Positions 436-59,546 of a stretch of DNA of 64,000 nucleotides are shown in pieces. The stretch is from positions 62,001-126,000 of the forward strand of contig NZ_MASU01000006.1 of assembly GCF_003202235.1 (NCBI RefSeq), in the 5' to 3' direction. Positions within the stretch are counted from its first letter, which is position 1, and each line of letters starts with the position of its first letter. This DNA comes from Prauserella flavalba (GTDB lineage Bacteria; Actinomycetota; Actinomycetes; Mycobacteriales; Pseudonocardiaceae). The translations under genes were made by a program, and so were the position numbers. The notes under the pieces were generated by a model, which worked only from the letters and a program-made list of their open reading frames with translations, was not told the DNA's origin and ran no database searches.

Positions 436-504
436 CTCCCCGCCTTTCCGTGATCCGTGACCGGCTGGAGCGTACCTCCGCCTGTTCCTTCCGACCTGTC
501 CTCC

Positions 505-550
505 TTGACATCCAAGGTAGGTCGGCATAGACATGTAAAGAGAGACATGT
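505..550 (+). promoter_or_regulatory. Predicted SDR promoter with PadR-type operator
   Basis: TTGACA at 505-510 is a perfect -35 element. It is followed after 17 bases by TAGACA at 528-533 as a plausible -10. Overlapping the -10 is ACATGT-N8-ACATGT (531-550), which contains ATGT-N8-ACAT (533-548), the published dyad for PadR-family repressors. The site lies 25 bases upstream of the SDR start and about 100 bases upstream of padR. Repression of the SDR gene by PadR is inferred. Confidence 0.6.
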
Positions 551-574
551 TGTTGAGATCATGTTGGAGTCGTC

Positions 575-1447: not shown

Positions 1448-1724
1448 GCGTGATCGTTCTCGCCGGGCGACGTCGGGTCTGGGCAGACAGGCCGCGCTCC
1501 GGCTGGCGAAGGAGGGGCACGAGCTGATCCTGATCGGCCGCGACGCCGAGCGTGGCCTGCGGCTCGAACGCGAGACGGGAGCGCGGTTCGTACGGGCCGA
1601 CCTGTCCACGATGGACGGTGTCACGCACGTCGCCGGGCGCGTGGCCGCCGAGGTGGACCGCGTGGACGTGCTGATCAACAACGCGGGCGTGATGACGCCG
1701 AAGCGCATCGCCCATCCGCAGTGA
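1444..1724 (+). pseudogene. Truncated, frameshifted SDR gene remnant
   Basis: From the GTG at 1444 the frame gives VSVIVLAG, the first strand of a Rossmann fold. The rest of the nucleotide-binding motif (ATSGLGRQAALRLAKEG) lies in another frame from about 1467, consistent with loss of one G near 1465-1468. That second frame continues through RADLSTMDG and VDVLINNAGVM, typical of SDR proteins, and then stops at 1724 inside the palindromic repeat that begins at 1718. Only about 90 codons of a normal 250-300 remain, with no catalytic Ser/Tyr/Lys. The frameshift could be a sequencing error, but the 3' truncation cannot. Confidence 0.8.
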
Positions 1725-1770
1725 AGGCCACCTTGCCTGCGTTCAACGCAGTGAAGGTGGCCTTCACTGC
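1718..1770. repeat. 53-bp intergenic palindromic element, copy 1
   Basis: An imperfect palindrome with outer arms GCAGTGAAGGCCACCTT and AAGGTGGCCTTCACTGC (17 bp, perfect). There is a 2-nt mismatch on each side, then an inner stem CTGCGTT/AACGCAG around a single C. Flanking CC and GG extend the stem to 19 bp. It lies between the 3' end of the SDR remnant (+) and the 3' end of the ABC permease gene (-). It is identical to copy 3 (37350-37402) and to the reverse complement of copy 2 (11931-11983). It could act as a bidirectional terminator, although no U-tract follows. Confidence 0.95.
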
Positions 1771-1792
1771 GGTCAGGTCAGCGCGGCCCCGG

Positions 1793-2677
1793 TCAGCCGT
1801 CCTTGGTGCTGAGGCGGGCGTAGGCGAGGGACAGGGCGATCGCGATGTAGCACCCGGCCCGCAGGGCTCCCTCCGCCAGCGGCCCGCCCGGCATCGGGTC
1901 GCGCAGCACGTCGCCGAGGTCGGTCCAGGAGTGGTTGAGCAGGAACGGGTGCAGCCAGTCGAGCGCGTCGAGCAGGCCGAGCACGGAGAACACGATCACG
2001 CCGCCGAGTACGGAGGCGAGCACCACCATCGGATGCTCGGTCCACGCCGAGATCGCCAGCGCCACCGCGCCCACCGCCCACAGCTGCAGCGCGACCCAGC
2101 CCGCGGCGATGGCGACCTTCAGCATCGCCGCGGGGAAGGACAGCGTGGTGCCCGACAGCGTGAACAGCGAGCCGGTCCCGTTGATCACGAGCCCGGTGAG
2201 CACCCCCGTCAGCGCCATCACCACCGTGGCCGTCACCGTGAAGACGGCGACCCCGATGGACTTGACCAGTAGCAGCCTGCCCCTGCCCACGGGCGCCAGC
2301 AGCCAGCCGCGCAGCGTGCCGTGTGCGGTCTCGCCCGCCAGCGCGTCGGCACCCGACATCGCCGCGCTGAGCGGCAGCAGCAGGCCCAGCGCCATCGCGA
2401 GCGTGCCGACGGGCAGCACGAGCGCGTTGCCGCCCGCCGTGGCGAGCAGGGACTCCCCGCCACCGTCGCCGCCGGGGCCCCCGCCCGGCGGACCCGGCGA
2501 GTCGACCAGCGTCAGCGCGATCCCGACGATCACCGGGATCACCGCGAGCAGGCCGAGCACCACGAGCGTGCGCGGTCTGCGGAAGATCCACCGCAGCTCG
2601 GCGCGCACGAGGCGCGCCAGCGACGCGTGCGCGCGCCCGGTGACCGGCACGGCGGGAGCCGTCGCGACCTCGGTCAT
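1793..2677 (-). CDS. ABC-2 type transporter permease
   Basis: A 294-residue membrane protein. It has a short cytoplasmic N-terminus (RAELRWIFRRPRT), a first membrane helix, then a long extracellular Gly/Pro-rich loop (SPGPPGGGPGGDGGGES). About five further helices follow, as in ABC-2 permeases. The motif DALAGETAHGTLRGWLLAPV is typical of the coupling region that meets the ATPase. The start overlaps the stop of the upstream ATPase gene (ATGA, 2674-2677), so the two are translationally coupled. The substrate is unknown. The LolA-like gene in the same operon and the divergent two-component system point to an envelope role. The downstream end faces the 53-bp palindrome. Confidence 0.85.
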   Translation of the reverse strand: MTEVATAPAVPVTGRAHASLARLVRAELRWIFRRPRTLVVLGLLAVIPVIVGIALTLVDSPGPPGGGPGGDGGGESLLATAGGNALVLPVGTLAMALGLLLPLSAAMSGADALAGETAHGTLRGWLLAPVGRGRLLLVKSIGVAVFTVTATVVMALTGVLTGLVINGTGSLFTLSGTTLSFPAAMLKVAIAAGWVALQLWAVGAVALAISAWTEHPMVVLASVLGGVIVFSVLGLLDALDWLHPFLLNHSWTDLGDVLRDPMPGGPLAEGALRAGCYIAIALSLAYARLSTKDG

Positions 2678-4706: not shown

Positions 4707-4768
4707 TGCCCCTCCTGTGGTCAACGTAAAGTGTGCCCCTTCTCGGCTTCGAGCGTGCGCCCCTCGTT

Positions 4769-4804
4769 CTGAGACCGGCCTGAGATGCTGAGAACCGGCT
4801 GAGA
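4769..4804. promoter_or_regulatory. CTGAGA direct-repeat array, candidate response-regulator operator
   Basis: CTGAGA occurs at 4769, 4780, 4788 and 4799, forming two CTGAGA-N5-CTGAGA units with 11-bp spacing separated by 2 bp. A fifth copy starts at 4836, just before the response regulator start at 4844. Tandem hexamers one helical turn apart are the usual binding pattern of OmpR/PhoB-type regulators. The array lies in the 137-bp gap between the divergent LolA-like and regulator genes, so autoregulation and control of the transporter operon are likely but inferred. Confidence 0.6.
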
Positions 4805-4843
4805 GCACGCGCGGGCAGGAGCGGAAACCGGCATCCTGAGAGC

Positions 4844-5548
4844 GTGAAGCCTCGAGTTCTGGTGGTCGACGACGAGCCCGGCGTGCGGAAGGCACTGCAG
4901 CGGGGCCTCGGCGCCGAGGGCATGGACGTGGTGACCGCGGCCGACGGGCCGAGCGCGCTGCGGCTGGCCCAGACCGGTGCCTTCGACGTGCTGCTGCTCG
5001 ACATCATGCTGCCGGGACTCTCGGGCTACCGCGTGCTGCAGGCGCTGCGGGCGCAGGGGGTGCACACGCCGGTGCTGCTGGTCTCCGCGAAGGACGGCGA
5101 GATCGACCAGGCCGACGGTCTCGACCTCGGCGCCGACGGCTACCTCGTGAAGCCGTTCTCGTTCGTGGTGCTCGTCGCGCAGGTGCGGGCGGTGCTGCGC
5201 AGGGCCGCCGCGCAGGGGATGCGCGGGCCGCTGCGGATCGGCGGGCTGACCGTGGACCGTGCCGCGCGGGAGGTGCGCTGGCACGACGATCCGGTGGCGC
5301 TGAGCCCGAGGGAGTTCGCGCTGCTGGAGGTGCTCGCCGGGCGGGCGGGCACGGTGGTGACCAAGGACGAGCTGTTGCGGGCCGTGTGGGGCGATGAGCA
5401 GGCGGCCACCCGCAACGTCGTCGAGGTCTACGTCGGGTACGTGCGGCGCAAGCTCGACGCCGCGGGCGCGGGCGCGTTCGTCCGCACCGTGCGCGGGCAC
5501 GGCTACGTCGCGTCCGACCCGGAGCTCGACCAAGTGACCACGGGGTGA
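4844..5548 (+). CDS. OmpR/PhoB family response regulator
   Basis: A 234-residue two-domain regulator. The receiver domain has the acidic pair D9/D10, the phospho-acceptor Asp53 (LLLDIMLPG), the switch Ser in VSAKDG and the Lys in YLVKPF. A winged-helix DNA-binding domain follows from about residue 125 ([17 protein letters not shown]...[13 protein letters not shown]...[10 protein letters not shown]). The start is GTG. The stop overlaps the histidine kinase start (GTGA, 5545-5548), so the two form a cognate pair. The divergent LolA-like/ABC operon and the CTGAGA repeats upstream suggest it controls that operon and itself. Confidence 0.93.
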
Positions 5549-6885
5549 TCTCTCCGCGCCGCTGGTGGCTGCGGCGGACGCTGCGGTTCCGGATCACGCT
5601 CGTCGCCACCACGATCACGCTGGCCCTGCTCTTCGGGCTCGCGCTGCTCGCGGGCAAGGCGCTCGGCCCGCTGCTGGTGAACTCCGTCGACGCGGAGCTG
5701 CGTGCCGCGCTCGAGACCGCGAGCGCGACGGTCGAGCGGGGCAGGGCGCCCAGCGCTCCCGAGGGCATCGACGTGCGCGTGCTCGACACCGCGGGCATGC
5801 CGGTCGACGGCGGCGAGCCCGCGCGGCTCGGCGCAGCGGATGTGAGCGAGCTGAAGGCCGGGCTGCCGGTGAGCACCGAGTTCACCGGTGAGGTCACCAC
5901 CAAGCTGCGCTGGCTCGGCGCCGTGGCGACCGCACCGGACGGCTCGCAGCGGCTCGTGGCGGTCGGCACGGCGATGGTGGGCTCGGGAGCGGCGAAGGCG
6001 AACGGCGCGCGCTGGCTGCTGCTCGTCGCACTGATCGGCGCGCTCGTCGCGACGCTCGCGACGTGGCTCGGGGTGCGCTCGGCCCTGGGGCCCGTCGGCA
6101 GGATGCGGCGTTCGGCGAAGGATCTCCCGCCCGGGGGCAGGCTCCCGCTGCCGGAGGCACACGACGAGCTGCGCGCGCTCGCGTCGGATTTCAACGCGCT
6201 GCTGGCGCGGCAGGAGGAGATCAGCGAGCGGCTGCGGCGCTTCACCGGCGACGCCGCGCACGAGCTGCGCTCGCCCGTCGCGTCGATCCGGGTGCAGGCC
6301 GAGGTGGCCGTCACCAACCCCGATCCCGGGCTGGCGCAGGAGACGCTCGGCGACATCCTGGAGGAGGCCGAGCGGCTTTCCGCGCTCCTCGACGGCCTGC
6401 TCGCGCTCGCGCGGTCCGACGCGGGCGAGGTGCCACCCGCCGAGCCCGTCGAGCTGGTCACCGAGGCACGTGACGCCGTGTCCAGGCTGCCCTCGGGTTC
6501 GCCACCGGTGCGGGTGAGCGCTGTGGTGCCGCAGGCGTGGGCGCTCGCGACGCACGCCGAGGTGGAGCTGGTGCTCAACAACCTGCTGCGCAACGCGTGC
6601 CGCTACGCGGACTCGCAGATCGTGGTGTCCGTGCTCGCCTCGCGCTCCCGCGTGCGCGTGGTGGTGGACGACGACGGGCCCGGCGTCGCGCCGGAGCACC
6701 GCGAGCACGTGTTCGACCGGTTCTACCGGGTCTCCGACGACCGCGCGCGCACCTCGGGTGGCACCGGGCTGGGGCTCGCGATGGTGGCCGAGGCCGCGCG
6801 CAGGCGCGGTGGGAGGGTGACCGTGGGGGAGTCGCCGGACGGCGGCGCCCGGTTCCAGGTGAGCTGGCGACGGCACGCACGCTAA
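5545..6885 (+). CDS. Sensor histidine kinase
   Basis: A 446-residue membrane kinase. TM1 is near residues 17-40, followed by an extracytoplasmic sensor of about 110 residues and TM2 near 150-172. A HAMP-like linker comes next, then the H-box [17 protein letters not shown] with the phospho-acceptor His, N-box [15 protein letters not shown]1 VDDDGPGV, F-box FDRFYR and G2 GGTGLGLAM. It phosphorylates the regulator encoded just upstream by translational coupling. The signal is unknown. A LolA/RseB-like exported protein encoded divergently could feed it information about the envelope. Confidence 0.92.
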
Positions 6886-6896
6886 CGTCCACTCGC

Positions 6897-7304
6897 GTGG
6901 AGCCCGTGGTGATCGTCGGAGCCGCCATCGTCCGCGACGGTGCGCTGCTCGCCCAGCAGCGTGCCTACCCCGAGGAGGCGGCGGGGCTGTGGGAGCTGCC
7001 GGGCGGGCGCGTCGAGGCGGGTGAGCCGGAGGAGGCAGCCGTGCGCCGCGAGTGCGCCGAGGAGCTCGGCGTCGCGGTCGAGGTGGGCGGGCGCGTCGGC
7101 GCGGACGTGCCGCTGCCGGGCGGCAAGGTGCTGCGGATCTTCGCGGCGAGGCTCACCGATCCGGCGGCCAGGCCGCACGCCGTCGAGCACCGGGCGCTGC
7201 GCTGGGTGGGTCCCCCAGACGTGGGCGATCTCGACTGGCTTCCCGCCGACCGGGTGCTCGTGCCCGACCTGGAGAAGTTGTTGCGCGACACCGGGTTCGC
7301 ATGA
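6897..7304 (+). CDS. Nudix hydrolase, MutT-like
   Basis: A 135-residue protein from the GTG at 6897, a start that gives MEPVVIVGAAIVRDGALLAQQ, the usual first strand of MutT proteins. The Nudix box is complete: GGRVEAGEPEEAAVRREC followed by AEELGV, matching GX5EX7REUXEEXGU with the metal-binding glutamates. Short proteins of this type hydrolyse nucleoside diphosphates linked to another moiety. Sanitising oxidised dGTP is the common guess, but the specificity is not determined here. The start is 11 bp after the kinase stop, so co-transcription with the two-component system is possible. Confidence 0.85.
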   Translation: MEPVVIVGAAIVRDGALLAQQRAYPEEAAGLWELPGGRVEAGEPEEAAVRRECAEELGVAVEVGGRVGADVPLPGGKVLRIFAARLTDPAARPHAVEHRALRWVGPPDVGDLDWLPADRVLVPDLEKLLRDTGFA

Positions 7305-7370
7305 TCGAAAACGCAGGTCAGAGGGCGGTTAACAGGCATCACCTGGCGGTCGCGGGCTTACCGTGAAGGT

Positions 7371-7670
7371 ATGTATGTCGTGCTGCTCACGTACACCGCG
7401 CCCCTGCCGGAGATCGACTATGTGCTGCCCGACCACGTGGAGTGGGTCGCGAGGCAGTACGACCACAACCACCTGCTGGCCTCGGGCCGCAGGGACCTGC
7501 ACCTCGGCGAGGTGATGATCGCCAGGCCGATGGCACGGCTGAAGCTCGACGCGATATTGGCCACCGACCCGTTGGCCGTCAAACACCTGGCCCACTACGA
7601 GGTGGTGGAGTTCTCGGCGACCCGCACGTGCCCGGAACTACGCCTGCTCAACGAGGCCATTCCCCACTAG
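7371..7670 (+). CDS. YciI family protein
   Basis: A 99-residue single-domain protein of the YCII ferredoxin-like fold. It starts MYVVLLTYTAPLPEIDYVLP, and the conserved His lies in LPDHVEWVARQYDHNHLLAS, followed by SGRRDLHLGEVMIARP, the typical glycine-turn and second strand. YciI proteins are small dimers of mostly unknown function, and some have peroxidase or dehydrochlorinase-like activity. The gene stands alone between the Nudix gene and a convergent 54-aa gene, so context gives no role. Confidence 0.8.
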   Translation: MYVVLLTYTAPLPEIDYVLPDHVEWVARQYDHNHLLASGRRDLHLGEVMIARPMARLKLDAILATDPLAVKHLAHYEVVEFSATRTCPELRLLNEAIPH

Positions 7671-7679
7671 CGCAACCGC

Positions 7680-7844
7680 TCACGCGGCCTTGGCGATGTC
7701 GGCCTTGGCCTTCTTCAGCGCGAGCACAGGACACTTCTTGCAGCGCGGCTTGGACTTGCAGCACTTCTTCTTGACTTTGCCCGATTTGATCAGCTTGCGG
7801 ACGACGGCCTTGGGGTCGTCTTCGCCCCCGTGCTTCTTGCCCAC
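7680..7844 (-). CDS. 54-aa Lys/Cys-rich small protein
   Basis: Reading leftward from the GTG at 7844, the frame encodes 54 residues beginning MGKKHGGEDDPKAVVRKLIK and ending KKAKADIAKAA. The middle reads KKKCCKSKPRCKKCPVLA, which has four cysteines as CC-X5-C-X2-C in a strongly basic context, compatible with a small zinc or iron-sulfur knot. About one third of the residues are lysine, very unusual for 72% GC DNA, where the antisense and shifted frames give Arg/Ala/Gly instead. That argues for real coding. A weak GGAG lies 9 bases before the start. The function is unknown. Its promoter region is shared with divergent typA. Confidence 0.7.
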   Translation of the reverse strand: MGKKHGGEDDPKAVVRKLIKSGKVKKKCCKSKPRCKKCPVLALKKAKADIAKAA

Positions 7845-8009
7845 GGATCACACTCCACGCCGGTCGGCTCCTCGCATCAGGTTAGGTGAGGCTATCCTTG
7901 ATCGAGGTGTGGCGCTGGGCACAATGGTAGCCCGGCTATCCTGGGTACGACCATCGTTGGCCTCGAGAGCCGATGGCCGCCCCCGTTCTCTTCCCACAGG
8001 AGTCGACGC

Positions 8010-9914
<1,905 letters not shown>

Positions 9915-10085
9915 CGCTCGGCCCGATCCCGGCCTGCCGGGAACCGCGTGGTTGGATCATGCGTCACCCAAGTGGCGGTACCTGGTCCAGTACCTCGGTT
10001 TGACGTCCGGTCTGGCAGTCTTCGGGTTCCGGCGTTACTGACGGTGCCGATCACGGCAGGTTCGACGAGCAGGAGGGGCTGCGGC

Positions 10086-11912
10086 GTGCGCGCGACTGGC
10101 GGGAGGGCGAGGGTGCGGTTGCTGGCGCTCGTGTTCGCGCTGGTGACCGTGGTGCTCGCGGCCTGCACCAACACCCCGCCGCCGCCCGTGGTCAGCTCAC
10201 CCATCGCGGAGACGTCCACGCCCGAGGCCGAGACGCCGTCGCAGATCGTGGTGAGCCTCGACGACATCGCGGGCGGGTACAACCCGCACAACCTGGCCGA
10301 CCTCTCCACGGTCACCTCCGCGCTGGCGCAGATGTTGCTGCCGTCGGTGTTCCGGCCCGCGGAGGACGGCACGCTCGAACTCGACGAGAGCCTGATGACC
10401 TCGGCCGAGGTCACCTCGCAGGAGCCGTTCACGGTCTCGTACCAGATCAGGCCGGAGGCGTCGTGGTCCGACGGCGCGCCCATCGCCGTCGAGGACTTCG
10501 CCTACCTCGCCGACGCGATGAAGAACCAGCCCGGTGTCGCCGACGCGGCCGGGTACCGGCTGATCACCGGCATCCAGCCGGGTGCGGGCGGCAAGCGGCT
10601 CGACGTGACGTTCAGCGAGCCGTACCCGGGCTGGCAGACCCTGTTCGACAATCTCCTGCCCTCACACCTGCTCAAGGACGCCCCCGGAGGCTGGCAGGGC
10701 GCGCTCGCGGACAGCTTCCCCGCCTATGGAGGACCGTTCTCGATCAAGACGCTCGACAAGGAGCGCGGCGAGATCGTGCTGGAGCGCAACGAGCGCTACT
10801 GGGAGAAGCCGGCCGCGGTCGACCGGATCGTGTTGCGCAGCTCCGACCACGCCGGCATGGTCGCGGCGCTGCGCAGCGGCAACGACCAGTTCGCGCTGGC
10901 CGGCACCGACGCGACGGGCCTGGAGCTGTTCTCCGAACTCGGCAAGGACGTCGACCTGCACACCGTCGCCAGGCCGTACCTCGCCTCGACGCTGCTGCGG
11001 CCGGTGGGCGTGCTGGCCGACGACCAGGTACGCGCCGGTGTCGCCGCGCTGCTCGACCGCGAGAAGCTGATCGCCGAGGGCACGCGCGGCGGTCCGTCCG
11101 AGCAGCTGCGGGCCGGCGCGCATGTGCTGCCGCCGTCGGCGAAGGACTACCGGCCCACGATCCCGCGCTCAGGCTCGCCGCTGACGCCCTCGCCGCGCAA
11201 GGCGGAGCAACTGCTCACCGCGGCCGGATACACGCGCGAGGCGGGCACCTGGACCCGCGAAGGGGTGCCCCTGTCGATCGTGGTCGCCTCGCCCGGGCAG
11301 CAGGAGCCGTACGCGAGCATCGCGCACGAGCTGAGCAGGCAGCTGATCGCCGCGGGGGTCGAGGTGACGACCGTGAACCCACCCGCCCGCGAGCTGTTCG
11401 ACTCGCTGCTGCCGACGCCGGTGAGCGGCACGTCCTCCGAGGAGGAGCCGCAGCCCGAGGCCGGTGGCGAGGGCACCGCGACGCCCACCACCGAGCCCAC
11501 CACCACGACGCCAGCGCCGTCGCCCAACGGCAACGTGGCGGTGGACATCGCGGTGGTGCCGCAGCCGGTGAGCTACGACCCGGCGTCGACGCTGGCGTCG
11601 ACCTTCGGTTGCCCACCGGGCTGGGACGCCGACCCGGACGGCGAGTCCTCACCGCAGGTGCCGGTCAACACCGCGGCGTTCTGCGACGAGGTGCTCCAGC
11701 CGACGATCGACGCCGCGCTGAGCGGAGCCGAGCCGCTGGGCGACAGCCTCGCCTCGGCGGAACCGGCGCTGTGGCAGGCGAACGTGTCGATCCCGCTGTT
11801 CCAGCTCGCCGACACGATGGCGATCGGCAAGACCGTGTCCGGCGTGACCGCGGGCCCCGCGATGGCGGGCCCCTTCTCCAACGCCGTCAACTGGACCCGC
11901 GCCCCCCGCTGA
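10086..11912 (+). CDS. lpqW: LpqW-like lipoprotein (family 5 solute-binding fold)
   Basis: An approximately 609-residue lipoprotein. The GTG at 10086 follows AGGAGG and gives a basic n-region (MRATGGRARVRLLA), a hydrophobic core and the lipobox LAAC. The GTG at 10113 is an alternative start. The mature protein has the oligopeptide-binding fold (SYQIRPEASWSDGAPIAVED, SFPAYGGPFSIK) and a long Pro/Thr/Glu-rich insertion near residues 455-485. In mycobacteria LpqW, encoded next to typA, is not an importer component; it regulates mannolipid and lipoarabinomannan synthesis. The same adjacency supports that assignment. The 3' end faces palindrome copy 2. Confidence 0.75.
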   Translation: MRATGGRARVRLLALVFALVTVVLAACTNTPPPPVVSSPIAETSTPEAETPSQIVVSLDDIAGGYNPHNLADLSTVTSALAQMLLPSVFRPAEDGTLELDESLMTSAEVTSQEPFTVSYQIRPEASWSDGAPIAVEDFAYLADAMKNQPGVADAAGYRLITGIQPGAGGKRLDVTFSEPYPGWQTLFDNLLPSHLLKDAPGGWQGALADSFPAYGGPFSIKTLDKERGEIVLERNERYWEKPAAVDRIVLRSSDHAGMVAALRSGNDQFALAGTDATGLELFSELGKDVDLHTVARPYLASTLLRPVGVLADDQVRAGVAALLDREKLIAEGTRGGPSEQLRAGAHVLPPSAKDYRPTIPRSGSPLTPSPRKAEQLLTAAGYTREAGTWTREGVPLSIVVASPGQQEPYASIAHELSRQLIAAGVEVTTVNPPARELFDSLLPTPVSGTSSEEEPQPEAGGEGTATPTTEPTTTTPAPSPNGNVAVDIAVVPQPVSYDPASTLASTFGCPPGWDADPDGESSPQVPVNTAAFCDEVLQPTIDAALSGAEPLGDSLASAEPALWQANVSIPLFQLADTMAIGKTVSGVTAGPAMAGPFSNAVNWTRAPR

Positions 11913-11930
11913 CTCGCTTGAGGCCCGAAC

Positions 11931-11983
11931 GCAGTGAAGGCCACCTTCACTGCGTTGAACGCAGGCAAGGTGGCCTTCACTGC
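11931..11983. repeat. 53-bp intergenic palindromic element, copy 2 (inverted)
   Basis: This is the exact reverse complement of copies 1 and 3. The 17-bp outer stem GCAGTGAAGGCCACCTT/AAGGTGGCCTTCACTGC and the inner CTGCGTT/AACGCAG stem are intact. It starts 18 bases after the lpqW stop and ends 16 bases before the stop of the convergent oligopeptide ATPase gene, so it can fold in both transcripts. Confidence 0.95.
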
Positions 11984-11999
11984 GGAAGGGCGGGCCGCC

Positions 12000-13049
12000 T
12001 CAGAGGAGCTGGGCGGTTTCCGCGTAGTGGCAGGCCGAGGGGTGGCCCTGGCCGCGGTCGACCAGCTCCGGCACCTCGTCGATGCACAGCTTGCGCTCGC
12101 CCTCGCTCAGCTCGTTCGCGAACTTCGGGCAGCGCGTGCGGAACCGGCAGCCGCTCGGCGGGTTGGCCGGGCTCGGCACGTCACCGGTGATCACGATCCG
12201 CTGCCGGGTGCGCTCCTTGCGCGGGTCCGGCACCGGGATCGCCGAGATCAGCGCCTGCGTGTACGGGTGCGCAGGCCGCTCGAACAGCTCCTCGGCCGGG
12301 GCGAGCTCCACGATCCGGCCGAGGTACATCACCGCGATGCGGTCGGCCACGTGCCGCACTACCGACAGGTCGTGGGACACGAACAGGTAGGACAGTCCCA
12401 GCTCGGATTGCAGGTCCTGCAACAGGTTCAGCACACCGGCCTGAATGGACACGTCCAAAGCGGACACCGGCTCGTCGAGCACCAGCACCTTCGGCTCCAG
12501 CGCGAGCGCCCTCGCGACGCCGATGCGCTGACGTTGCCCGCCCGAGAACTCGTGCGGGAAGCGGTTGCCGTGCTCCGGCCGCAGGCCCACGGTGGCCAGC
12601 AGCTCACGCACACGCTCCTTGCCGCCGTTCTCGTAGAGCCCGTGGATCCGCAGCGGCTCGGCGACGATCTCGTTGACCGGGATCCTCGGGTCGAGCGAGG
12701 CGTACGGGTCCTGGAACACGATCTGCATGCTCCGGCGCAGCCGCCGCATCTCCTTGCGGCCCAGCGTGTTCAGGTTCTGTCCCTCGAAGGAGACCTCACC
12801 GGCGGTGGCGGGCTGGAGGTTGAGCACCACACGCGCGGTGGTGGACTTCCCGCAGCCGGACTCACCGACGAGGCCCAGCGTCTCGTTCGGATAGAGGTCG
12901 AACGAGACACCGCACACCGCGTGCACATCGCCGATCCGGCGCCGCAGGATCCCGCCGCCGTGCACGGGGAAGTGCTTCACGATGTCGCGAGCCGAGAGCA
13001 CGGGCGTCCGGCTGGTCGTCGACTCGACGTCGAGTGCCGTCTCGGTCAT
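12000..13049 (-). CDS. Oligopeptide ABC importer ATP-binding protein (OppF/DppF type)
   Basis: A 349-residue ATPase with Walker [10 protein letters not shown], signature [14 protein letters not shown], Walker [13 protein letters not shown] and the switch His in VSHDLSV. The C-terminus has the OppF/DppF extension with four cysteines ([10 protein letters not shown]...C...ACHYAE), a known iron-sulfur-type motif of the family. The N-terminal phrase [19 protein letters not shown] is typical of the F subunit. It pairs with the D-type ATPase whose stop overlaps this gene's start (13046-13049). It is the last gene of the five-gene importer operon and ends at palindrome copy 2. Confidence 0.92.
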
Positions 13050-14128
13050 TCGCGGACCTCTCCTTCGGTCGCGCCGGCCGGCAGCGGGTCATCCGCCACC
13101 GGACGGAACAGGTCGGTGGGCTCGTGGCCCTCGACCCGGTAGCTGAAATGGCAGGCCGCGAGGTGCTCGGGGTTCGACCCGGGCTCCAACGGCGGCTCCT
13201 CCTGGTCGCAGATGTCCTCCGCGAGCGGGCACCGGGGGCTGAACGGGCAGCCCGGCGGCATGTTGATCACCGACGGCGGCGAGCCCGCGATGGGCGTGAG
13301 CCGGTCCGTTTTGATGTCGAGGCGAGGCAGGCTGCCGAGGAGCCCGAGCGTGTAGGGCATCCTCGGCGTGTAGAACACCTCGTCGGCGGTGCCCTTCTCC
13401 ACGGGCTTGCCCGCGTACATCACCATCACCCGGTCGGCCTGGCCCGCGATCACGCCGAGGTCGTGGGTGATCAGGATCATCGCCGCGCCGGTCTCCTTCT
13501 GCGCGGTCCGCAGCGCCTCCAGGATCTGCGCCTGCACGGTGACGTCGAGCGCGGTGGTCGGCTCGTCGGCGATGATCACGTCCGGCTGGTTGGCCATCGC
13601 GATCGCGATCACCACGCGCTGGCGCATACCGCCCGACAGCTCGTGCGGGTACGCCTTCGCCCGCTGCTCCGGGTTCGGGATGTGCACGGTCTCCAACAGC
13701 TCCACGGCCTGCTTGCGCGCCGCCTGCTTGGTGATGTCGTTGTGCACCAGGATGGTCTCGGCGATCTGGTCACCGATGGTGTAGACGGGGTTCAGCGACG
13801 TCATCGGGTCCTGGAACACCATCGAGATGCCCCGGCCACGGACCCGGGAGAGCTCCTTGTCGCCCGACTCGAGCAGCTCCGTGCCGTTGAACCGCACGGA
13901 GCCGGACACGCGGGCCGTCTTGGGCAGCAGGCCCATCACGGCCAGCGACGTCACCGACTTGCCCGAACCCGACTCGCCGACGATGCCGAGCACCTCGCCC
14001 CGGCGCAGCTCGTAGCTGACGCCGCGGACGGCCTCGACCAAGCCCTCGTCGGTCGGGAACTGCACGGTCAGGTCCTCCACCTCGAGGACGGTGTCGCCCG
14101 TCGTCGCGGCGGGGTCTGTGGGGGTCAT
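13046..14128 (-). CDS. Oligopeptide ABC importer ATP-binding protein (OppD/DppD type)
   Basis: A 360-residue ATPase from the ATG at 14128. Walker A is GESGSGKS, signature [14 protein letters not shown], Walker [14 protein letters not shown] and the switch His is in LITHDLGV. The C-terminal OppD extension ends with the cysteine set [20 protein letters not shown]...ACHFSY. Both ends overlap neighbours by 4 bp (ATGA at 14125-14128, ATGA at 13046-13049). With the F-type ATPase it should form the heterodimer that powers the two permeases encoded upstream. Confidence 0.92.
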
Positions 14129-15069
14129 GCGCGTACCTTCGTCTGCTGGGGGTCGAACGCGTCCCGCAGTCCGTCCCCGATGAAGTTGATCGTCAGCGCG
14201 ATCAGGATGATGAACAGGCCCGGGAAGTAGAACAGCCAGGGCCGCGTCGACACCGCGGTCTGGTTCTGGCTGACGAGCAGGCCGAGCGAGGTGTCCGGCG
14301 GCTGGACGCCGAAGCCGAGGAACGACAGCGACGTCTCGATCAGGATCGCGATCGCCACGAGGATGGTGGCGTTGACGATCACCGAGCCGAGCGCGTTGGG
14401 CACGAGGTGGCGGAAGATGATCCGCGAGTCGGTGGCGCCGAGCGCCCTCGCCGCCTCGATGAACTCCTTCTCCCGCAGGGAAAGCACCACGCCGCGGGCG
14501 ACGCGTGAGACGTAGGCCCAGTAGAGGCCCGCGATCACGATCGCGATGAGCCACCATGCACCCTGGGTGTTGTGCGCGAGCACGGCGGCGACCGCCAGCA
14601 GCGGCAGCGTCAGCACCAGGTCGGCGATGCGCATGAGGATCGTGTCGACCCAGCCGCGGTAGAAGCCCGCCACCGCGCCCCAGATCGTGCCGACGATCGT
14701 GGCGAACAAAGCCACGAGCACCGCGATGCCGATCGAGATCTGGGTGCCGCGCAGCACCTGCGCGAAGCTGTCGTGCCCGATGGCGTCGGTGCCGAACGGG
14801 TGGTCCCACGACGGCGGCTGCGAGTGGTCGCCGGTGAGCTCGGAGACGTCGTACTTCCACAGCCACCCGCCGACGAAGGCGAGCAGGACGATCAGGACCA
14901 GCACGACGAGGCTGCCGACGGCGAGCTTGTGCTGCAGGAACCGGCGGATGACCAGCTGGGCCTGGCTGCGCTCGGCAACGGTGAACTCGCGTTCGACGCG
15001 GGTCCGCTTCTCGGGGCCGCTCGGCTTGGTCGGGACGGGCGCGACGTCGCTGTTGATGTTGTCAGGCAT
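14125..15069 (-). CDS. Oligopeptide ABC importer permease (OppC/DppC type)
   Basis: A 314-residue inner-membrane protein with the OppC-type long cytoplasmic N-terminus (about 50 residues) and TM1 (LAVGSLVVLVLIVLLAFVGG). A periplasmic loop contains HPFGTDAIGHDSFAQVLRGT, the classic C-subunit signature. Four or five more helices follow, with the EAA-type coupling loop EFIEAARALGATDSRIIFRH. The start overlaps the end of the B-subunit gene by 8 bp. It partners with the B permease to form the channel for peptides captured by the lipoprotein encoded at 16207-17961. Confidence 0.92.
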   Translation of the reverse strand: MPDNINSDVAPVPTKPSGPEKRTRVEREFTVAERSQAQLVIRRFLQHKLAVGSLVVLVLIVLLAFVGGWLWKYDVSELTGDHSQPPSWDHPFGTDAIGHDSFAQVLRGTQISIGIAVLVALFATIVGTIWGAVAGFYRGWVDTILMRIADLVLTLPLLAVAAVLAHNTQGAWWLIAIVIAGLYWAYVSRVARGVVLSLREKEFIEAARALGATDSRIIFRHLVPNALGSVIVNATILVAIAILIETSLSFLGFGVQPPDTSLGLLVSQNQTAVSTRPWLFYFPGLFIILIALTINFIGDGLRDAFDPQQTKVRA

Positions 15070-16042
15070 AGCGGATCCTCGGGTCGAGCACGCCGTAGAG
15101 CAGGTCGGCGACGAGATTGAGCACGATGATGACGGTCGCCGAGATCACGAGCCACGCCATGATCGAGTAGACGTCGTCCTTTTCGATGGCCTCCAGCAGG
15201 AACGTGCCGGCCCCCTGCCACTGGAACACCGTCTCGGTCACGACGGCGCCGGAGATGATCGAGCCGAGGTCGAGTGCGGTCACGGTGGTGAGCGGGATGA
15301 GCGCGGTGCGCAGCGCGTGCTTGCGCATCACCTGCCCTCGCCGCAGGCCCTTGGCCCTGGCCAGCCGCACGTAGTCGCTGTTGAGCACCTCGAGCATCGC
15401 GGCGCGCTGGAACCGGCTCCAGGCCGCGAACGACAGCAGCGCCAGCGAGATGGTCGGCAGGATCATGTGTCCCGCCGTGTCGAGCACTTTGTCCCAGGCG
15501 CCGCCCGCCACGTACACGGAACTGTCCCCGATGGTGAACAGCACCTGCTCGCCGACGGCGTTGTTGAAGCTGATGCCGGCTTCCTTCAGCAGGATCGCGA
15601 ACCAGAAGGTGGGCATCGCGAGGAAGAGGAAGCCGATGAAGGTGAAGGTGTAGTCGACGCCGGAGTACTGCTTCACGGCGCTCACCACACCCGCGATGAT
15701 CGCGAGGATCAGGGCGAGGAGCATGGCCAGCAGCACGAGCCGCAGCGTGACCATGTAGCGGCTCATCACCTCGTTGCCGATGTCCATGGTCGACTCGGTC
15801 GAGGGGCCGAAGTCGCCACGGAAGAGGCCGGTGAGCCAGTTCCAGTACCGCTCGAAAATGGGCTGGTCGAGGTGCAGGCGAACCCGCTCGGCCTCGATGG
15901 TCTGTGGTGGGGGCGGCGGGCTGATCGCGAGGAGCCGGTTGAGCGGGTTGCCCGACAGTGCCGCCATCAGGAAGACGACGAACGTCGAGGCGATGAAGAT
16001 CGGCACCGAGATCAGCAGTCGGCGCAAGGAATAGGCGAGCAT
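15062..16042 (-). CDS. Oligopeptide ABC importer permease (OppB/DppB type)
   Basis: A 326-residue membrane protein starting MLAYSLRRLLISVPIFIAST, the usual OppB/DppB N-terminus. A periplasmic segment of about 60 residues follows (LDQPIFERYWNWLTGLFRGD), then five helices and the coupling loop DYVRLARAKGLRRGQVMRKH. It lies directly after the substrate-binding gene but is separated from it by a strong hairpin at 16132-16176, which probably lowers expression of the membrane and ATPase genes relative to the binding protein. Confidence 0.92.
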   Translation of the reverse strand: MLAYSLRRLLISVPIFIASTFVVFLMAALSGNPLNRLLAISPPPPPQTIEAERVRLHLDQPIFERYWNWLTGLFRGDFGPSTESTMDIGNEVMSRYMVTLRLVLLAMLLALILAIIAGVVSAVKQYSGVDYTFTFIGFLFLAMPTFWFAILLKEAGISFNNAVGEQVLFTIGDSSVYVAGGAWDKVLDTAGHMILPTISLALLSFAAWSRFQRAAMLEVLNSDYVRLARAKGLRRGQVMRKHALRTALIPLTTVTALDLGSIISGAVVTETVFQWQGAGTFLLEAIEKDDVYSIMAWLVISATVIIVLNLVADLLYGVLDPRIRYA

Positions 16043-16131
16043 GGAGGTCTTCCTGCTGGAACGGGTCAGCGAGCGGCGAAGCCGCTCGTGGCGGTACCGC
16101 CGATCAGGGTACGTTCTTGATCTTGTTCTCG

Positions 16132-16176
16132 CCCGATGGGGGAGGCCGCCGGTGAAAGGCGACCTCCCCCATCGGG
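16132..16176 (-). terminator. Intercistronic hairpin between binding protein and permease genes
   Basis: CCCGATGGGGGAGG (16132-16145) pairs perfectly with CCTCCCCCATCGGG (16163-16176), and a 3-bp GCC/GGC stem lies in the loop. It sits between the binding-protein stop (16207) and the permease start (16042). No U-run follows on the transcribed strand, so partial termination or 3' protection of the upstream mRNA is more likely than full termination. Confidence 0.75.
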
Positions 16177-16206
16177 ATGTCGGATCAGGAGGTCACGCGC
16201 CGGGCA

Positions 16207-17961
16207 TCAGCCCTGGCGGATTCCCCACTGGCCGATGTTGTACACCGGTCCGTCCAGTGTCGAGTTGTTGCGCACGTTCGCGAGGTTGTCGTACGCGGCG
16301 ATGAACGTCGGCTTCTGGTACAGCGGGAGCACGTAGGCGTCCTTGGCCATGATGCGGTTCGCCTCGTTCACCTTGGCGAGCGCGTCCTGGCGGTCGGTCG
16401 CCGCGGCCGCCTCGTTGAGCAGGCGGTCGACGTCCGGGTTGCTGTAGTTACCGAAGTTGTTGCCCTGACCCGTGGTCCAGTTCTGGACCGCGTTCGCGAA
16501 CGGGTACGGCGAGGCGACCCACGCGAACAGCATGATGTCGTACTCACCGCTCTCGAGCGTGCCACCGAGGTCGTCGGTCGGCGAGACGTTCACCGTGACG
16601 CCGAGCTGCTTGGCGGCCTGGGCGAACAGCTCGCTCGAGTCCTGGCGGATCTGGTTACCCGTGGTGTAGCGGATGGAGAGCTCCGGAACGGGCTGGCCGT
16701 TCGGGGCCATCAGGCGGTCGCCCTGCTGCTGGTAGCCGGCGTCCGTGAGGATCTGCTTGGCCTTCTCGATGTCACCAGTGCCCTGACCGGTCTCGCTGAT
16801 GACGTCCTCGTAGCCCTCCTGCTGCGGCATGAAGTTGTTGCTGTTCAGCGGCTCGACCTTGTCGGTGAACTGGCCGACTGTGCCGTCGATCAGCGCCTGC
16901 CGGTCGACAGCGGTGAACAGCGCCTGGCGCAGTGCCTTGTCCTTCAGCGCGGGAGTGTCGAGGTTGAAGTCGAAGTGCTCCCAGGTCAGGCCGAGGCCGA
17001 CGTAGGACGACACGTTCGGGATGTTGCGCACCTGGTTCACGAGGTCCACCTGCGGCTGCGGGTAGATGATCTGGACCTCGTTGTTCTGCAGGGCGGTGGG
17101 CTCCTGCGCGGCGTCGGTGATGATCCGGAAGATCACGCGGTCCAGCTTCGGCTTCTCGCCCCACCAGCGCTCGTTCGGCACCAGGGTCAGCGACCGGTTC
17201 TTCTGGAAGTTCTCGATCTTGTACGGACCACCGGAGAAGGTGGGCATGTTGGCGCCGAACCAGTCGAACGCCGACTTCAGGCCCGCCGGGGTGTTGAGGT
17301 CACCGTGCTGCTTGGCGATGTGCGCGGGGTAGATCGGCTGGCCCGACTCCCACAGCTGCTGCCAGTCGGTGAACGGCTTCTCGTAGGTCACGGTCACGGT
17401 CTTGCCGTTGTCCGAGCCCTCGACCGAGCGCACCTGGTCGTACCCGGCCGTCGTGGCGACCGCGCAGTCCGGGCAGTCCTTGCCGTTCTGGGTCTTCCAG
17501 ATGTAGATGAAGTCCTCGGCCGAGATCGGCGTGCCGTCCGACCACACCGCTTCCTGCTTGATCTTGTACTCGATCGTCTGCGGGTTGGTGCTGACCTGCT
17601 CGGCCGACTCCAGGACGTCCTCGTTCATCGCGAACTTGAGGTCCGGGTTGCTGCTGAAGGTCGAGGGCAGCACGCCCTTCAGCGCCATGCCGGTCTCGAA
17701 GACGTTGCCCTCGGAAGAGTTGAGGTTCCAGTTGGCGATGTCCTTCTCCAGCGCCATGGTGACCTCGCCGCCGTCCTGCAGCTGGTCGGCAGGCGCGGAG
17801 TTGCACTCGTTGGGGTTCGCATCGCACTCGGCGAAGATCTGCCCGGTCTGGGCGCCATCCCCGTCGCCTCCGCCGTCGCCACCGCTGCACGCGGACAGGA
17901 CGAGCGCCGCCCCTGCGACGAGCGCGGCCGCCCGCGCCGCGCCTGACTTACTTCTCAACAT
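16207..17961 (-). CDS. Oligopeptide-binding lipoprotein, family 5
   Basis: A 584-residue lipoprotein with signal peptide (MLRSKSGAARAAALVAGAAL) and lipobox LSAC, followed by a Gly/Asp linker (SGGDGGGDGDG). The body has the OppA/DppA fold: IEYKIKQEAVWSDGTPISAE, TFSGGPYKIENFQKNRSL, PNERWWGEKPKLDR, FDFNLDTPALKDKALRQALF and a C-terminal PLYQKPTFIAA. It delivers peptides or similar compounds to the permeases encoded downstream. It is the first gene of the operon, with a 419-bp upstream gap, and is probably the most highly expressed because a hairpin follows it. The substrate cannot be deduced. Confidence 0.9.
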   Translation of the reverse strand: MLRSKSGAARAAALVAGAALVLSACSGGDGGGDGDGAQTGQIFAECDANPNECNSAPADQLQDGGEVTMALEKDIANWNLNSSEGNVFETGMALKGVLPSTFSSNPDLKFAMNEDVLESAEQVSTNPQTIEYKIKQEAVWSDGTPISAEDFIYIWKTQNGKDCPDCAVATTAGYDQVRSVEGSDNGKTVTVTYEKPFTDWQQLWESGQPIYPAHIAKQHGDLNTPAGLKSAFDWFGANMPTFSGGPYKIENFQKNRSLTLVPNERWWGEKPKLDRVIFRIITDAAQEPTALQNNEVQIIYPQPQVDLVNQVRNIPNVSSYVGLGLTWEHFDFNLDTPALKDKALRQALFTAVDRQALIDGTVGQFTDKVEPLNSNNFMPQQEGYEDVISETGQGTGDIEKAKQILTDAGYQQQGDRLMAPNGQPVPELSIRYTTGNQIRQDSSELFAQAAKQLGVTVNVSPTDDLGGTLESGEYDIMLFAWVASPYPFANAVQNWTTGQGNNFGNYSNPDVDRLLNEAAAATDRQDALAKVNEANRIMAKDAYVLPLYQKPTFIAAYDNLANVRNNSTLDGPVYNIGQWGIRQG

Positions 17962-18380
17962 TGACTCTCCTTGCTGGACGCCATCGGGGTTCGAGGCGAT
18001 CTCTCCCCTTGTCGGTGAGCCGTCGATGTGATCGATGGTGCTCGCCGTAACCGTGAACGCTAAGCACAGTTTCGGCGACCGTGCCGCTTCGGACAGCGAT
18101 CGTGATGCAACGGTGATTACCCAACGATTACTCCGAACGAGTGACGTGGAGCATACCCTCGAACTGGAGCGTCACCGTGTGTCGGTATCCCACCCGCCGT
18201 CTTCCCACCACCTCGACATGGCGCTATGCATGACGCGGGGAGAATAGCCCAGTGATCCCGGCATGTGGACACGACGAAAGAACTAAATGCCAATCGGTGA
18301 CCTTTTGGCGGCCGATCAGTGAACTCGCTACGCCGTTAGGGCCAGTCCGGTCGTCGCACGCGCGCCCGTAGGCTGGCGGC
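17962..18380. other. 419-bp divergent intergenic region
   Basis: It lies between the binding-protein gene (-) and mshB (+). The part near 18060-18150 is less GC-rich than its surroundings and should hold the promoters. I see no convincing -35/-10 pair, RNA gene, repeat or riboswitch. A 70-codon open frame at 18035-18247 has no Shine-Dalgarno sequence or recognisable sequence and is not called. Confidence 0.6.
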
Positions 18381-19603: not shown

Positions 19604-19605
19604 CG

Positions 19606-36600: not shown

Positions 36601-37335
36601 ATGTCTGTGACCAAGAGATTGCCCCTTCGCGCTCTCGCTGTCGCCACGCTGACGGCCGGCCTGTTCCTCGGGTCGGCCGTCAGTGCTGTCGCGACCGAGC
36701 ACGAGGACCCGCGTGCCGAGTCCTTCGAGGGCAACGCCGTCACCTGTGAGGACGCCGGTCTCGACGGCGACCTGATCGACAAGGGCGACCTCACCTTCAC
36801 CGGTGGCAAGGAAGAGCAGGACCAGTACGTGACGATCACCGATGTCGCCGACGGCATCACGGTGACCGGCATCGTCGTCAAGGGCGGCGACAACTACAAC
36901 GTCTACGTGCCGGGCGAGAAGGGTCTCTCCGAGACGCCGCCGTGGGAGGAGCTCCGTTCGCCGCTGAACAACGGCGGCCAGGTCCCGCAGATCAGCCACT
37001 GGTACGTGTGCGGCACCGAGACCACCACGACCACCACCTCCACCACGACCTCCACCACGGAGACCACCACCTCGGAGACCTCGACGACCACGTCGGAGTC
37101 CACCACGGCCGAGAGCACCACGAGCGAGCGCGACGACACGACCACGACCACCACGTCGTCCGTCGCGGGCGGAGCCGTCGCCCCCACGAGCGAGGCCCCG
37201 GTCTCGCCCGCGGGTGACAGCGGCGACCTGGCCTCGACCGGTTTCAGCGGGGCGTGGCTCGTCGGCCTCGGCGCCCTGCTGCTCCTCGGCGGTGGCGCCC
37301 TGGTCTTCCTGACCCGGATGCGCCGCAGCTCCTAG
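36601..37335 (+). CDS. Surface protein with LASTG sortase signal and Thr-rich stalk
   Basis: A 244-residue exported protein. The signal peptide is MSVTKRLPLRALAVATLTAG through AVSAVATE. Residues 35-140 form a small globular domain with two cysteines (TCEDAGLDGD and HWYVCGTE). A stalk of about 55 residues is almost only Thr, Ser and Glu (codons ACC/ACG/TCC), probably glycosylated. The C-terminus is a sorting signal, LASTG followed by a hydrophobic helix (AWLVGLGALLLLGGGALVFL) and the basic tail RMRRSS. LAxTG is the motif of actinobacterial class E sortases, but no sortase is encoded in this window. The globular domain is unknown to me. Confidence 0.82.
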   Translation: MSVTKRLPLRALAVATLTAGLFLGSAVSAVATEHEDPRAESFEGNAVTCEDAGLDGDLIDKGDLTFTGGKEEQDQYVTITDVADGITVTGIVVKGGDNYNVYVPGEKGLSETPPWEELRSPLNNGGQVPQISHWYVCGTETTTTTTSTTTSTTETTTSETSTTTSESTTAESTTSERDDTTTTTTSSVAGGAVAPTSEAPVSPAGDSGDLASTGFSGAWLVGLGALLLLGGGALVFLTRMRRSS

Positions 37336-37349
37336 CGGGATCGCCACCC

Positions 37350-37402
37350 GCAGTGAAGGCCACCTTGCCTGCGTTCAACGCAGTGAAGGTGGCCTTCACT
37401 GC
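37350..37402. repeat. 53-bp intergenic palindromic element, copy 3
   Basis: Identical over 53 bp to copy 1 and in the same orientation, including the flanking CC/GG that extends the outer stem to 19 bp. It begins 14 bases after the stop of the sortase-substrate gene (+) and ends 29 bases before the stop of the convergent membrane protein gene (-). Confidence 0.95.
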
Positions 37403-37431: not shown

Positions 37432-39750
37432 CTAGCCTTCCCTGACGCGCGGCTGGCCGAGCAGACCCTCGAAGAGGGGGACCTGTTCGGCCAGCCGCGC
37501 CGTCATGTCGGCCCTTTCCAGCCCGGCGGCCAGCACCACGGCGCGGTCCCACTCGGGGTCGGCGACGTAGTCCGCGTGCCTGCGCACCCCGGCCACCCAG
37601 CGCCTGCCGTTGATCGGCTCGCGCATCGGGTCGGGCAGCCAGTGGTCGCCGCCGAGCACCAGCGCACCGGTCGGCCCCTGCACCGCGGGCTCCAGTGCGC
37701 CGACGCCGCCGTCCGGCAGGTAGCCGATGCCCAGCAGCTTGTCGTCGGTGACCTGGTGGCGCCACGTCGTCGCGCCGCCGCCGAACGTGTCGGTGCCGCG
37801 GCACAGCCCGCGCCAGCGCCCGTCGAGCTGCCCGAAGAGGCGGGCGAGCGAGTCGTGCGGGAACACAGCGGGGAACGCGCGCTGGTAACCCCATTGCAGG
37901 GGCGCCCCGGCGGTCACCACGCCGACGCGTTCCCGGTCGGCGGCGGGCAGTTCGGCCGCGAGCCTCGCCGCGCTCATCACCGCGAGCAGCCCGCCGACGT
38001 GGTAGCCGGCGAGCACCACGCGGGCGCCGGGCTCGGCCAGGTGCTCGCGGGCCCGCTGGGCGAGCTCCGGCACCACCTTGAGCGCATACGACGGCGGGAC
38101 GGCGGGGTGCGCCGCCCTCGGCCAGAAGCACACGAGGTCGGAGAACGCGCCGAGGTGACGGCTCCGTTCGGGCCCGGTCGCCGCCGTGTAGACCACCCGC
38201 AGCAGCCCTGCCGCGAGCCCGCCGAGCGTGAGCACGCCGACGCCGGAAAGCGGGTTCAGCGCGGTCGGCACCGAGCCGTAACCCAGCCGCACCGCGAGCA
38301 GCGCGGCCACGCCGACCGCGAGCACGACGACGATCGTGAGCACGATGCGGTGCAGGTACTTGCGTTCCCAGCTCGACCGCGCCCACGCCGCGGCCGCCTC
38401 CTCCTCGTCCTCCTCGTGCGTCTCCATGAGCCTGACGACGTCGGGGATGCCGCGACGAGCGCGCCGCAGCGGTACCGCGACCGCGAACCCGAGCACGGCG
38501 AGCAGCGCGCCGACCGCGAGGCCCGCGCCCCACAGCAGCGTGATGAGCGTGTAGCTCTCCGGCAGCCGCAGCCCGCGGGTGCCGACGAGCTCGCGCAGCG
38601 CGATGGCGAGCCCGGCCCCGAACCCGCCGCCGAGCAGCCCGGCGAGCGCGAGCGCGGGCGCCGCGGCCCAGCCGCCCGCCCACGGCCGCAGGCGCCGCGG
38701 CAGCGTGGCCCACGCCGGCCTCGCCAGGAGCGCGGCCGGGATCAGCAGCAGCCCGAACAGCACGCACACGACGAGCAGTGCGGCGCCGATGCCCTCGACG
38801 GTGTCGTCGGTGCCCGTGAGCGTCACCGGAAGCGGGGTCCGCACCACCGCGGCCGCGACCGCGAGCGCCGCCGCGAGGCCCAGCAGCACCATGCGCGGCA
38901 CGACGGGGAGCAGCCGGTGCGCGCGCACCGCCGTGGCGAGCACGGCGATGCCCAGCAGTGCGAGCGTGGCGAACCACAGCACGGCGTCGGCGGTCCGCTC
39001 CGGCACCCGCAGCGGGCCCCCGAGCAGCAGCAGTGCGACGCACGTGAGCGCGGCGACCGTGTGCACGCACCGCAGCATCGCGGTGTCGGCGCCGTCGACC
39101 AGCTGGTCACCGGGCAGCCCCTTGCCGGGCAGCGGACGTCGTTCCGGCGCCGTCACCTTCCACTTCGCCGACGACACCCGGAAGAGCACGAACACCACCA
39201 GCAACAGGGGCACCACGCCGAGCGCCATGCGCACGCCGTCGACGTCACGCACCCACGACGGCGCCAGCGTGAGGCACCCGCTGCCCGGGGCAAGGCACTG
39301 CGCGGCGAACAGGTCGAGGGTCACCACGGCGAGCTGGCTCACCAGCAGCATCGTGAGCAGCAGTGCGGCGAGCCGCAGCAGCCCCCGGCACAGCACGCCG
39401 AGCACCGCGGCGAGCCGTCTGCCCTCCGGCACCGGCGGCAGCATCCAGTGCGCCACGTTGGCGAGTGAGAAGGGGAACAGCAGCGCCCACGTGGCCTTGG
39501 CGGCGCCGCCCGAGGTCATCCGGTTCCAGAGGTAGCCCTCCAGGGTGCGCGGCACCGACCGGCCGAGCGCCTGCAGTACCGGGCCGGGCGCCGGCCTGCG
39601 CAGCCGGTCGGAGGGGCGGATCACGCGGCCGACTCCGTCACCGGCCACGTCGACCGTGCCGACGGAGTCGAGCAACGACTCGCCACTCGTACCTATCAGC
39701 CCCGGAACGCGCAGTTCGACGACGCGGGCATCGGGGCCGGGGAGGGGCAC
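37432..39750 (-). CDS. Large membrane protein with pseudo-alpha/beta-hydrolase domain
   Basis: A 772-residue protein from the GTG at 39750, with GGAG 8 bases before it. The N-terminal segment ([20 protein letters not shown]) resembles the first strand of a hydrolase. Roughly nine to ten membrane helices span residues 90-540. The C-terminal 230 residues look like an alpha/beta hydrolase: [20 protein letters not shown] at the nucleophile elbow, [19 protein letters not shown], and a late His in [11 protein letters not shown]. The elbow reads G-Y-H-V-G-G, so the nucleophilic Ser is His at residue 584. The function is unknown, with a lipid- or envelope-related role plausible. It is divergent from ahcY. 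Confidence 0.75.
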
Positions 39751-59289: not shown

Positions 59290-59293
<4 letters not shown>

Positions 59294-59482: not shown

Positions 59483-59497
59483 GCCGGTGAGGCACCG

Positions 59498-59538: not shown

Positions 59539-59546
59539 TTTCCGCG

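Follow-up and report, generated by a model that had tools for sequence, protein, structure and literature searches.

A repeated hairpin family at convergent gene ends in Prauserella flavalba, with species-specific versions at shared sites

Results

A 53-bp hairpin occurs three times in the 64,000-nucleotide stretch of Prauserella flavalba DNA analyzed here (hereafter the window). It belongs to a family of extragenic hairpins that lies just after stop codons, mostly those of convergent genes; the family probably ends or protects transcripts and is probably homogenized by gene conversion or copying. Species-specific, homogenized versions of the element occupy shared convergent sites, and the element is present in this genome where a relative has abutting or overlapping genes.

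Three identical elements in the window

The initial annotation had described three identical 53-bp hairpins, the middle one inverted, at the 3′ ends of convergent genes or gene remnants. Exact matching and folding place the copies, with their neighboring genes, as follows:

1494..1724, + strand: truncated SDR gene fragment (adh_short positions 17–93 of 195; frame read), with its stop codon at 1722–1724 inside the 1718 element
1718..1770, + strand: family-A element, 53 bp, short asymmetric form (inner arms TTGCC/GTGAA); exact match and folding
1793..2677, − strand: ABC-2 transporter membrane gene facing the 1718 element; gene call and Pfam
10113..11912, + strand: SBP_bac_5 gene that stops 18 nt short of the 11931 element; gene call and Pfam
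11931..11983, − strand: the same 53-bp element, inverted, between the SBP_bac_5 and ABC_tran/oligo_HPY genes; exact match and folding
12000..13049, − strand: ABC_tran/oligo_HPY gene with its stop at 12000, 16 nt from the 11931 element; gene call and Pfam
36607..37335, + strand: gene that stops 14 nt short of the 37350 element; no Pfam match at E 0.001; gene call
37350..37402, + strand: the same 53-bp element, flanked by gene ends at 37335 (+) and 37432 (−); exact match and folding
37432..39750, − strand: gene that stops 29 nt away from the 37350 element; no Pfam match at E 0.001; gene call

The copies thus adjoin convergent 3′ ends as had been claimed, with facing stops 18 and 16 nt away from the 11931 copy and 14 and 29 nt away from the 37350 copy. 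At the 1718 copy, a called stop lies 22 nt to the right and the nearest complete called gene to the left ends 270 nt off; between that gene and the element lies the truncated SDR fragment, whose frame is closed by the element's own TGA (1722–1724). A stop at this same place inside the element is found at 3 of 42 facing ends of convergent loci in this genome and at 9 of 68 facing ends of convergent loci from named Prauserella species, among the matches listed. A complete SDR gene (575–1447) directly precedes the truncated one, and the DNA of window positions 1–1715 has no match at E 1e-20 in the compared stretches of relatives.

The earlier remark that no other convergent pair in the window carries the element, most of them overlapping or nearly touching, holds for the nine convergent junctions present: three have the element, five overlap or lie 1 to 9 bp apart, and one (59293–59547) is the site of an unrelated hairpin. 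Searching the window with the 17-nt arm at ≤3 mismatches gives nine matches, three of which are 3-mismatch matches of the half-palindrome within the same copies, against 0.13 expected, and none of 100 shuffles reached nine. No Rfam family matches the window at its gathering score, and a plasmid or phage origin was rejected when 111-nt and 91-nt window queries matched nothing in either collection.

Structure and covariation of the hairpin

The structure first proposed was a 17-bp outer stem, a 2-nt mismatch, and a 7-bp inner stem. RNA folding of five strands returns the outer stem (17 core pairs, 18 to 22 with the flank) and the mismatch (2 × 2, internal), and corrects the inner stem to 6 bp closed by a 3-nt loop; folding energies range from −47.9 to −52.4 kcal/mol (z from −9.75 to −10.86). 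The plan of the element is two AAGGnnnCCTT half-palindromes, 30 bp apart, flanking a 13-nt stem-loop, and it extends beyond 53 bp into a weaker palindromic flank with the consensus CCCGACC...GGTCGGG (234 flanks). Long forms of 104 to 108 bp (one of 137 has an extra unit) share the same arms and contain a similar interior in either orientation. That interior is G-rich on one strand (GGGTGGTGGTGGGAGACGGG) in contigs C5 and C6 of this genome and C12 of the relative G002, and is possibly quadruplex-capable.

Base pairing is conserved with compensatory change. Five genomes and the loci from named species (the same two species as G002 and G329) supplied 82 distinct 53-mers, of which we chose 21 for diversity; in these 21, 94.7% of cells are paired and 17 of 25 stem pairs have changed on both sides, a result equaled by none of 500 shuffles and compared with 34 to 46% pairing in slid controls. 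Nine of the 13 invariant columns fall within AAGGnnnCCTT, which is found in each half. Two of three S-type copies from G329 carry changes at positions 9 and 15 and at their partners that preserve both the long stem and the half-palindrome.

These last two observations would also suit an unlikely alternative, in which the AAGGnnnCCTT pair provides sites for a chromosome-wide DNA-binding protein and is kept at gene ends because it is disruptive elsewhere. Against this stand the full-length pairing, with its 17 compensated pairs, which favors a long hairpin as such, and the rarity of unpaired half-sites (four at ≤1 mismatch, compared with 48 paired elements). The half-palindromes are also 30 bp apart in the short form and ≈81 to 85 bp apart in the long form (by arithmetic from 104 to 108), and this difference implies no strict helical phasing.

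Family size and placement in the genome

The three hairpins are part of a larger repeat family at gene ends, bigger than first noted. In the 8.09-Mb genome (39 contigs), the 53-mer is exact at 15 places and is matched at ≤3 mismatches 105 and 106 times on the two strands, counts that are not additive because near-palindromes are counted on both. For a census we used 842,372 bp, made up of C6:62001–504372, which includes the window, and an arbitrary stretch, C5:800001–1200000; the sample is not wholly unbiased because the window had been flagged for its three copies. It contains 44 members, namely 32 of type A (23 of 53 bp and nine longer) and 12 of type B (11 and one, respectively), the latter type, with outer arms GCCCCC/GGGGGC, having been detected by a sequence-blind hairpin scan. 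Extrapolation gives ≈420 members genome-wide if the sample is typical.

This sample strongly supports the association with convergent 3′ ends: 34 of the 44 members are convergent and 10 tandem. None is divergent or inside a gene, so that the scatter of copies through genes and divergent promoters at equal frequency, named beforehand as grounds for refutation, is not seen. Of 70,913 intergenic bp, 12,412 (17.5%) belong to convergent gaps (binomial p = 7e-18 for the placement of the elements). A facing 3′ end is found no more than 50 nt from nine of the 10 tandem copies, the exception being at 117407 of the joined C6 stretch, and the median distance from element to facing stop is 16.5 nt (42 ends at 21 convergent loci of this genome). 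When all hairpins with stems ≥12 in the same sample are clustered, 37 of the 53 convergent ones, and none of the six divergent ones, fall into a single cluster, which is this family.

Loci chosen by sequence similarity show a like distribution. Thirty such loci from this genome, with one single half set aside, comprise 21 convergent, seven tandem, one in a gene, and one at an edge. Once 12 edge cases and one single half are left out, the matches listed from at least 58 stretches of P. endophytica and P. shujinwangii include 59 classifiable loci, of which 34 are convergent, 21 tandem, and four divergent. The four divergent copies and the one in-gene copy are simple-caller assignments without a manual check, and single placements of this kind may be wrong because the genes come from a purpose-written simple caller. 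In the relative G001, 470,000 bp contain 13 elements, nine convergent and four tandem.

Concerted change at sites shared with a relative

We compared this genome with G001, which is 86% identical in DNA over window positions 1797–19990, at 41 conserved convergent gene pairs. The element is present in both genomes at eight pairs; where it is present here alone, G001 has another hairpin at four pairs and none at four. Pairs with another hairpin here have the element in G001 in one case and another hairpin in two, and pairs with none here have a hairpin in G001 in one case and none in either genome in 21. The eight shared sites exceed the 16 × 9/41 = 3.5 expected (hypergeometric p = 0.00095), an excess that has the alternative that sites requiring a hairpin would likewise overlap.

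At all eight shared convergent sites, the element is of type A or B here and of type K in G001. Type K accounts for all 13 G001 elements and none of the 44 here, and the type-A core is absent at ≤1 mismatch from the entire G001 genome. Five of these sites can be compared over 53 nt: identity is 0.64 to 0.85 between positional counterparts, 0.87 to 0.98 between an element and the most similar copy at another locus of its own genome, and 0.88 to 0.95 between the two genomes over the final 300 nt of the left gene. A likeness within genomes that exceeds positional likeness despite conserved gene ends is, as judged from these alignments, concerted evolution. At pair 79, this genome and G001 both have the element beginning 2 nt past the left stop; the seven remaining shared sites differ in this distance by 1 to 17 nt. 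With agreement at one site of eight, the elements at shared sites may have been acquired independently instead of being ancestral copies that were later converted. Three different versions, one each in this genome, G001, and G329, are found at pair 116, where G003 has another hairpin.

The initial annotation had proposed recent spread or gene conversion of a repeated unit; the 15 exact copies, the concerted evolution, and the gains and losses between species support spread, conversion, or both. That first reading could not reveal that the family is lineage-wide and that different species have their own versions at the same sites.

Gain and loss of copies and the means of spread

Blocks of G002 are mostly 87 to 93% identical to this genome. 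When six elements on contig C5 were compared with G002, four were common to both by direct alignment and one was absent. From the G002 side, 11 elements or half-elements were surveyed: four have the same counterpart here, three fall at gaps of 1.05, 1.15, and 13.4 kb in this genome, and for the remaining four the compared stretch contains no match. The largest of these differences places 13.4 kb of this genome (C5 ≈220389–233825 of the joined stretch) where G002 has one element between the same flanks, a large insertion or deletion located at an element. At two of three short sites shared with G002, the inner arms differ as blocks (e.g., GTGAA and GGCAT); such block-wise swaps between forms existing elsewhere in the family are the pattern that gene conversion would give.

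The window sites also differ among relatives. At 11931, G002 carries the same element, G001 a different hairpin, and G329 a diverged relative of the element; the left flank of the 1718 site is common to no relative in the compared stretches, and G002 has a long form there; at 37350, the facing genes of G329 are separated by 30 nt with no hairpin between them. At three convergent sites occupied here, with gaps of 66, 86, and 171 nt, the G001 gaps are −4, 3, and 4 nt, and at a fourth the G001 gap is 22 nt without a hairpin.

Of 390 genomes of the same bacterial family, 113 contain an exact match to the core of the element, GTGAAGGnnnCCTTCAC, many of them once, and such single cases may be chance. 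The core occurs at 257 places here, 237 in G002, 1,231 in G161, and 329 in G178 (0 to 2 for a reversed control), and 0 to 1 times in each of 18 other searched genomes of the G178 genus. In G161, a genome of 6.9 Mb, the inner stem is different (GGACTCAGAGTCC). The dimer plan at ≤2 mismatches is found in 11 of 298 genomes of the order, all within the same family (11 of 54, and 0 of 244 outside it), and both patterns miss diverged versions such as the G001 type. P. endophytica is likewise a member of the Pseudonocardiaceae. The element is dispensable, given that G003, a member of the same genus, lacks any match to the core and carries no copy across 236 kb.

Such patchy spread, as between G161 or G178 and the congeners of the latter, would be expected of a MITE-like nonautonomous element with 17-bp inverted repeats, mobilized by a transposase favoring hairpin DNA at 3′ ends, with termination incidental. 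We consider this origin possible but rather doubtful. In its favor, the long and short forms have their arms in common, as terminal inverted repeats would be; sites occupied here correspond to overlapping or abutting genes in G001; and the truncated SDR gene terminates within the 1718 copy. However, direct repeats at the ends are no more frequent than in permuted controls within 14 nt of the 53-mer ends (0.085 versus 0.112 for k = 5; 0.017 versus 0.029 for k = 6), the empty sites are not clean, and no parent element was seen among arms paired within 200 bp. Typical MITE placement is also looser than that of this family, which counts against a MITE-like origin.

REP/BIME elements proper, that is, palindromes dispersed by a REP-associated tyrosine transposase (RAYT), share with this family hundreds of short extragenic palindromes of species-specific sequence in which complementary mutations are retained, going by the sections of PMC2817692 that describe them. 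We nevertheless find dispersal of this kind very unlikely. The Y1_Tnp model (PF01797) matches none of four genomes of the genus and none of eight carriers, and the same search matched five of 14 known genomes as a control; the flank consensus, read by eye over 234 flanks, has no GT(A/G)G head. The search largely refutes a resident Y1 transposase, although an ancestral RAYT since lost is possible. The copying machinery is not a Y1 (RAYT-type) transposase detectable by the Pfam model. Of the REP/MITE idea raised at the outset, REP-like behavior therefore stands, and the Y1 transposase (0 of 8 carriers) and a target-site duplication (no signal) do not.

Transcript ending or 3′-end protection

Bidirectional termination or 3′-end protection is the best functional reading of the family and a plausible inference. 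Transcription from either side would produce an RNA hairpin of ≈−50 kcal/mol that would end the transcript or stop 3′-exonucleases; one element would thereby serve two facing genes and limit antisense read-through. Gene conversion, or templated copying from one locus to another, would keep the copies alike, and additional copies would survive chiefly at gene 3′ ends because they would be harmful elsewhere.

A stable GC-rich hairpin soon after the stop codon, a canonical feature of intrinsic terminators, is present; a U-tract is not, with a mean of 1.45 T in the 9 nt outward compared with 1.44 further out (234 flanks). Five or more T of 9 are found on 2 of 68 sides of convergent family hairpins and on none of 38 sides of other convergent hairpins of the same genome, and a simple terminator scan of window positions 1–20000 flagged no element. 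This flank composition rules out a canonical U-tailed terminator. Termination is compatible with the missing U-tract because Streptomyces terminators have few U residues: Term-seq in that genus, in the part of the report that bears on this point, describes long stable hairpins poor in U and points to Rho-dependent ending as possibly the more frequent mode (PMC12207403).

Some hairpin is found in G001 at 12 of 16 pairs that have the element here and at 1 of 22 that have none (Fisher p = 7.5e-6), an association confounded by space because pairs without hairpins mostly abut; taken alone, G003 (p = 0.28) and G329 (p = 0.10) give nonsignificant associations. G003, which is without the family, has other hairpins at four of eight comparable sites. 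That hairpins recur at the same sites in G001 supports a role that different hairpins can fill, such as the termination or protection of a pair of facing transcripts.

DNA uptake sequences that double as terminators, as in Neisseria and the Pasteurellaceae, offer the closest published placement among the systems compared, in that the pertinent sections of PMC1852404 describe paired inverted signals that form hairpins, a repeated sequence enriched between tail-to-tail genes. An uptake function is extremely unlikely here. The signals treated in those sections are 9 to 11 nt long, generally in at least 1,000 copies (PMC1852404), as opposed to a unit of 53 to 108 bp that is nearly always paired (again 48 paired elements to four unpaired half-sites) and lacks A/T tails. 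None of the 44 elements is inside a gene, the phylum is a different one, and the sequence differs between sister species.

Discussion

We class the family as of the REP-like or terminator-repeat kind rather than as REP, because the transposase and head tests failed. It differs from REP/BIME elements in having no Y1 transposase in eight carriers and no GT(A/G)G head, in its fixed dimer-of-palindromes plan, and in its concentration between convergent stop codons. Gene conversion was reportedly proposed for REPs by Higgins in 1988. Streptomyces Term-seq terminators are likewise long, very stable hairpins with few U and no A-tracts in high-GC DNA, but no sequence-repeated, homogenized family is described in the relevant part of that report (PMC12207403). 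Repeated stem-loop families of bacteria, one kind of which has been regarded as consisting of terminators, are also similar; the high-GC Gram-positives named in the sections at hand are Corynebacterium and Mycobacterium, and the words Streptomyces and convergent do not occur in the main text (PMC2267715). A literature search returned no recognized description of the family, which is weak evidence of absence since subscription papers were partly covered.

We tentatively put forward, as a stronger version of the preferred explanation that could well prove wrong, a self-homogenizing terminator of the Pseudonocardiaceae, in which each species would have one or two hairpin sequences and non-Y1 copying to the ends of convergent genes would continually rewrite hundreds of loci as the sites stay. 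If true, genome-wide bidirectional transcript ends would change in sequence together at fixed sites. The family itself is a clear example from nature of a putative signal for transcript ending that undergoes concerted evolution at dispersed loci: sister species retain the element at the same boundary while each genome's copies shift to a new shared sequence. It prompts two questions, namely which process copies short hairpins when no REP transposase is detected, and whether a single strong hairpin lacking a U-tract can serve both of the genes that face it in high-GC actinomycetes. Antibiotic producers such as Amycolatopsis belong to that group.

Two further sets of repeats were observed. Intergenic tandem repeats with the motif CGCGAGTCGTGCGTT form a small set in the 842-kb sample, with three hairpins in one cluster. 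A second, unrelated family of repeated hairpins (GCTCGTGAGTGTGAAACG...CGTTTCACACTCACGAGC) is found in G329 (C3:43001–295000), where its eight copies in 252 kb, five convergent and three tandem, include one at the counterpart of the window 1718 site.
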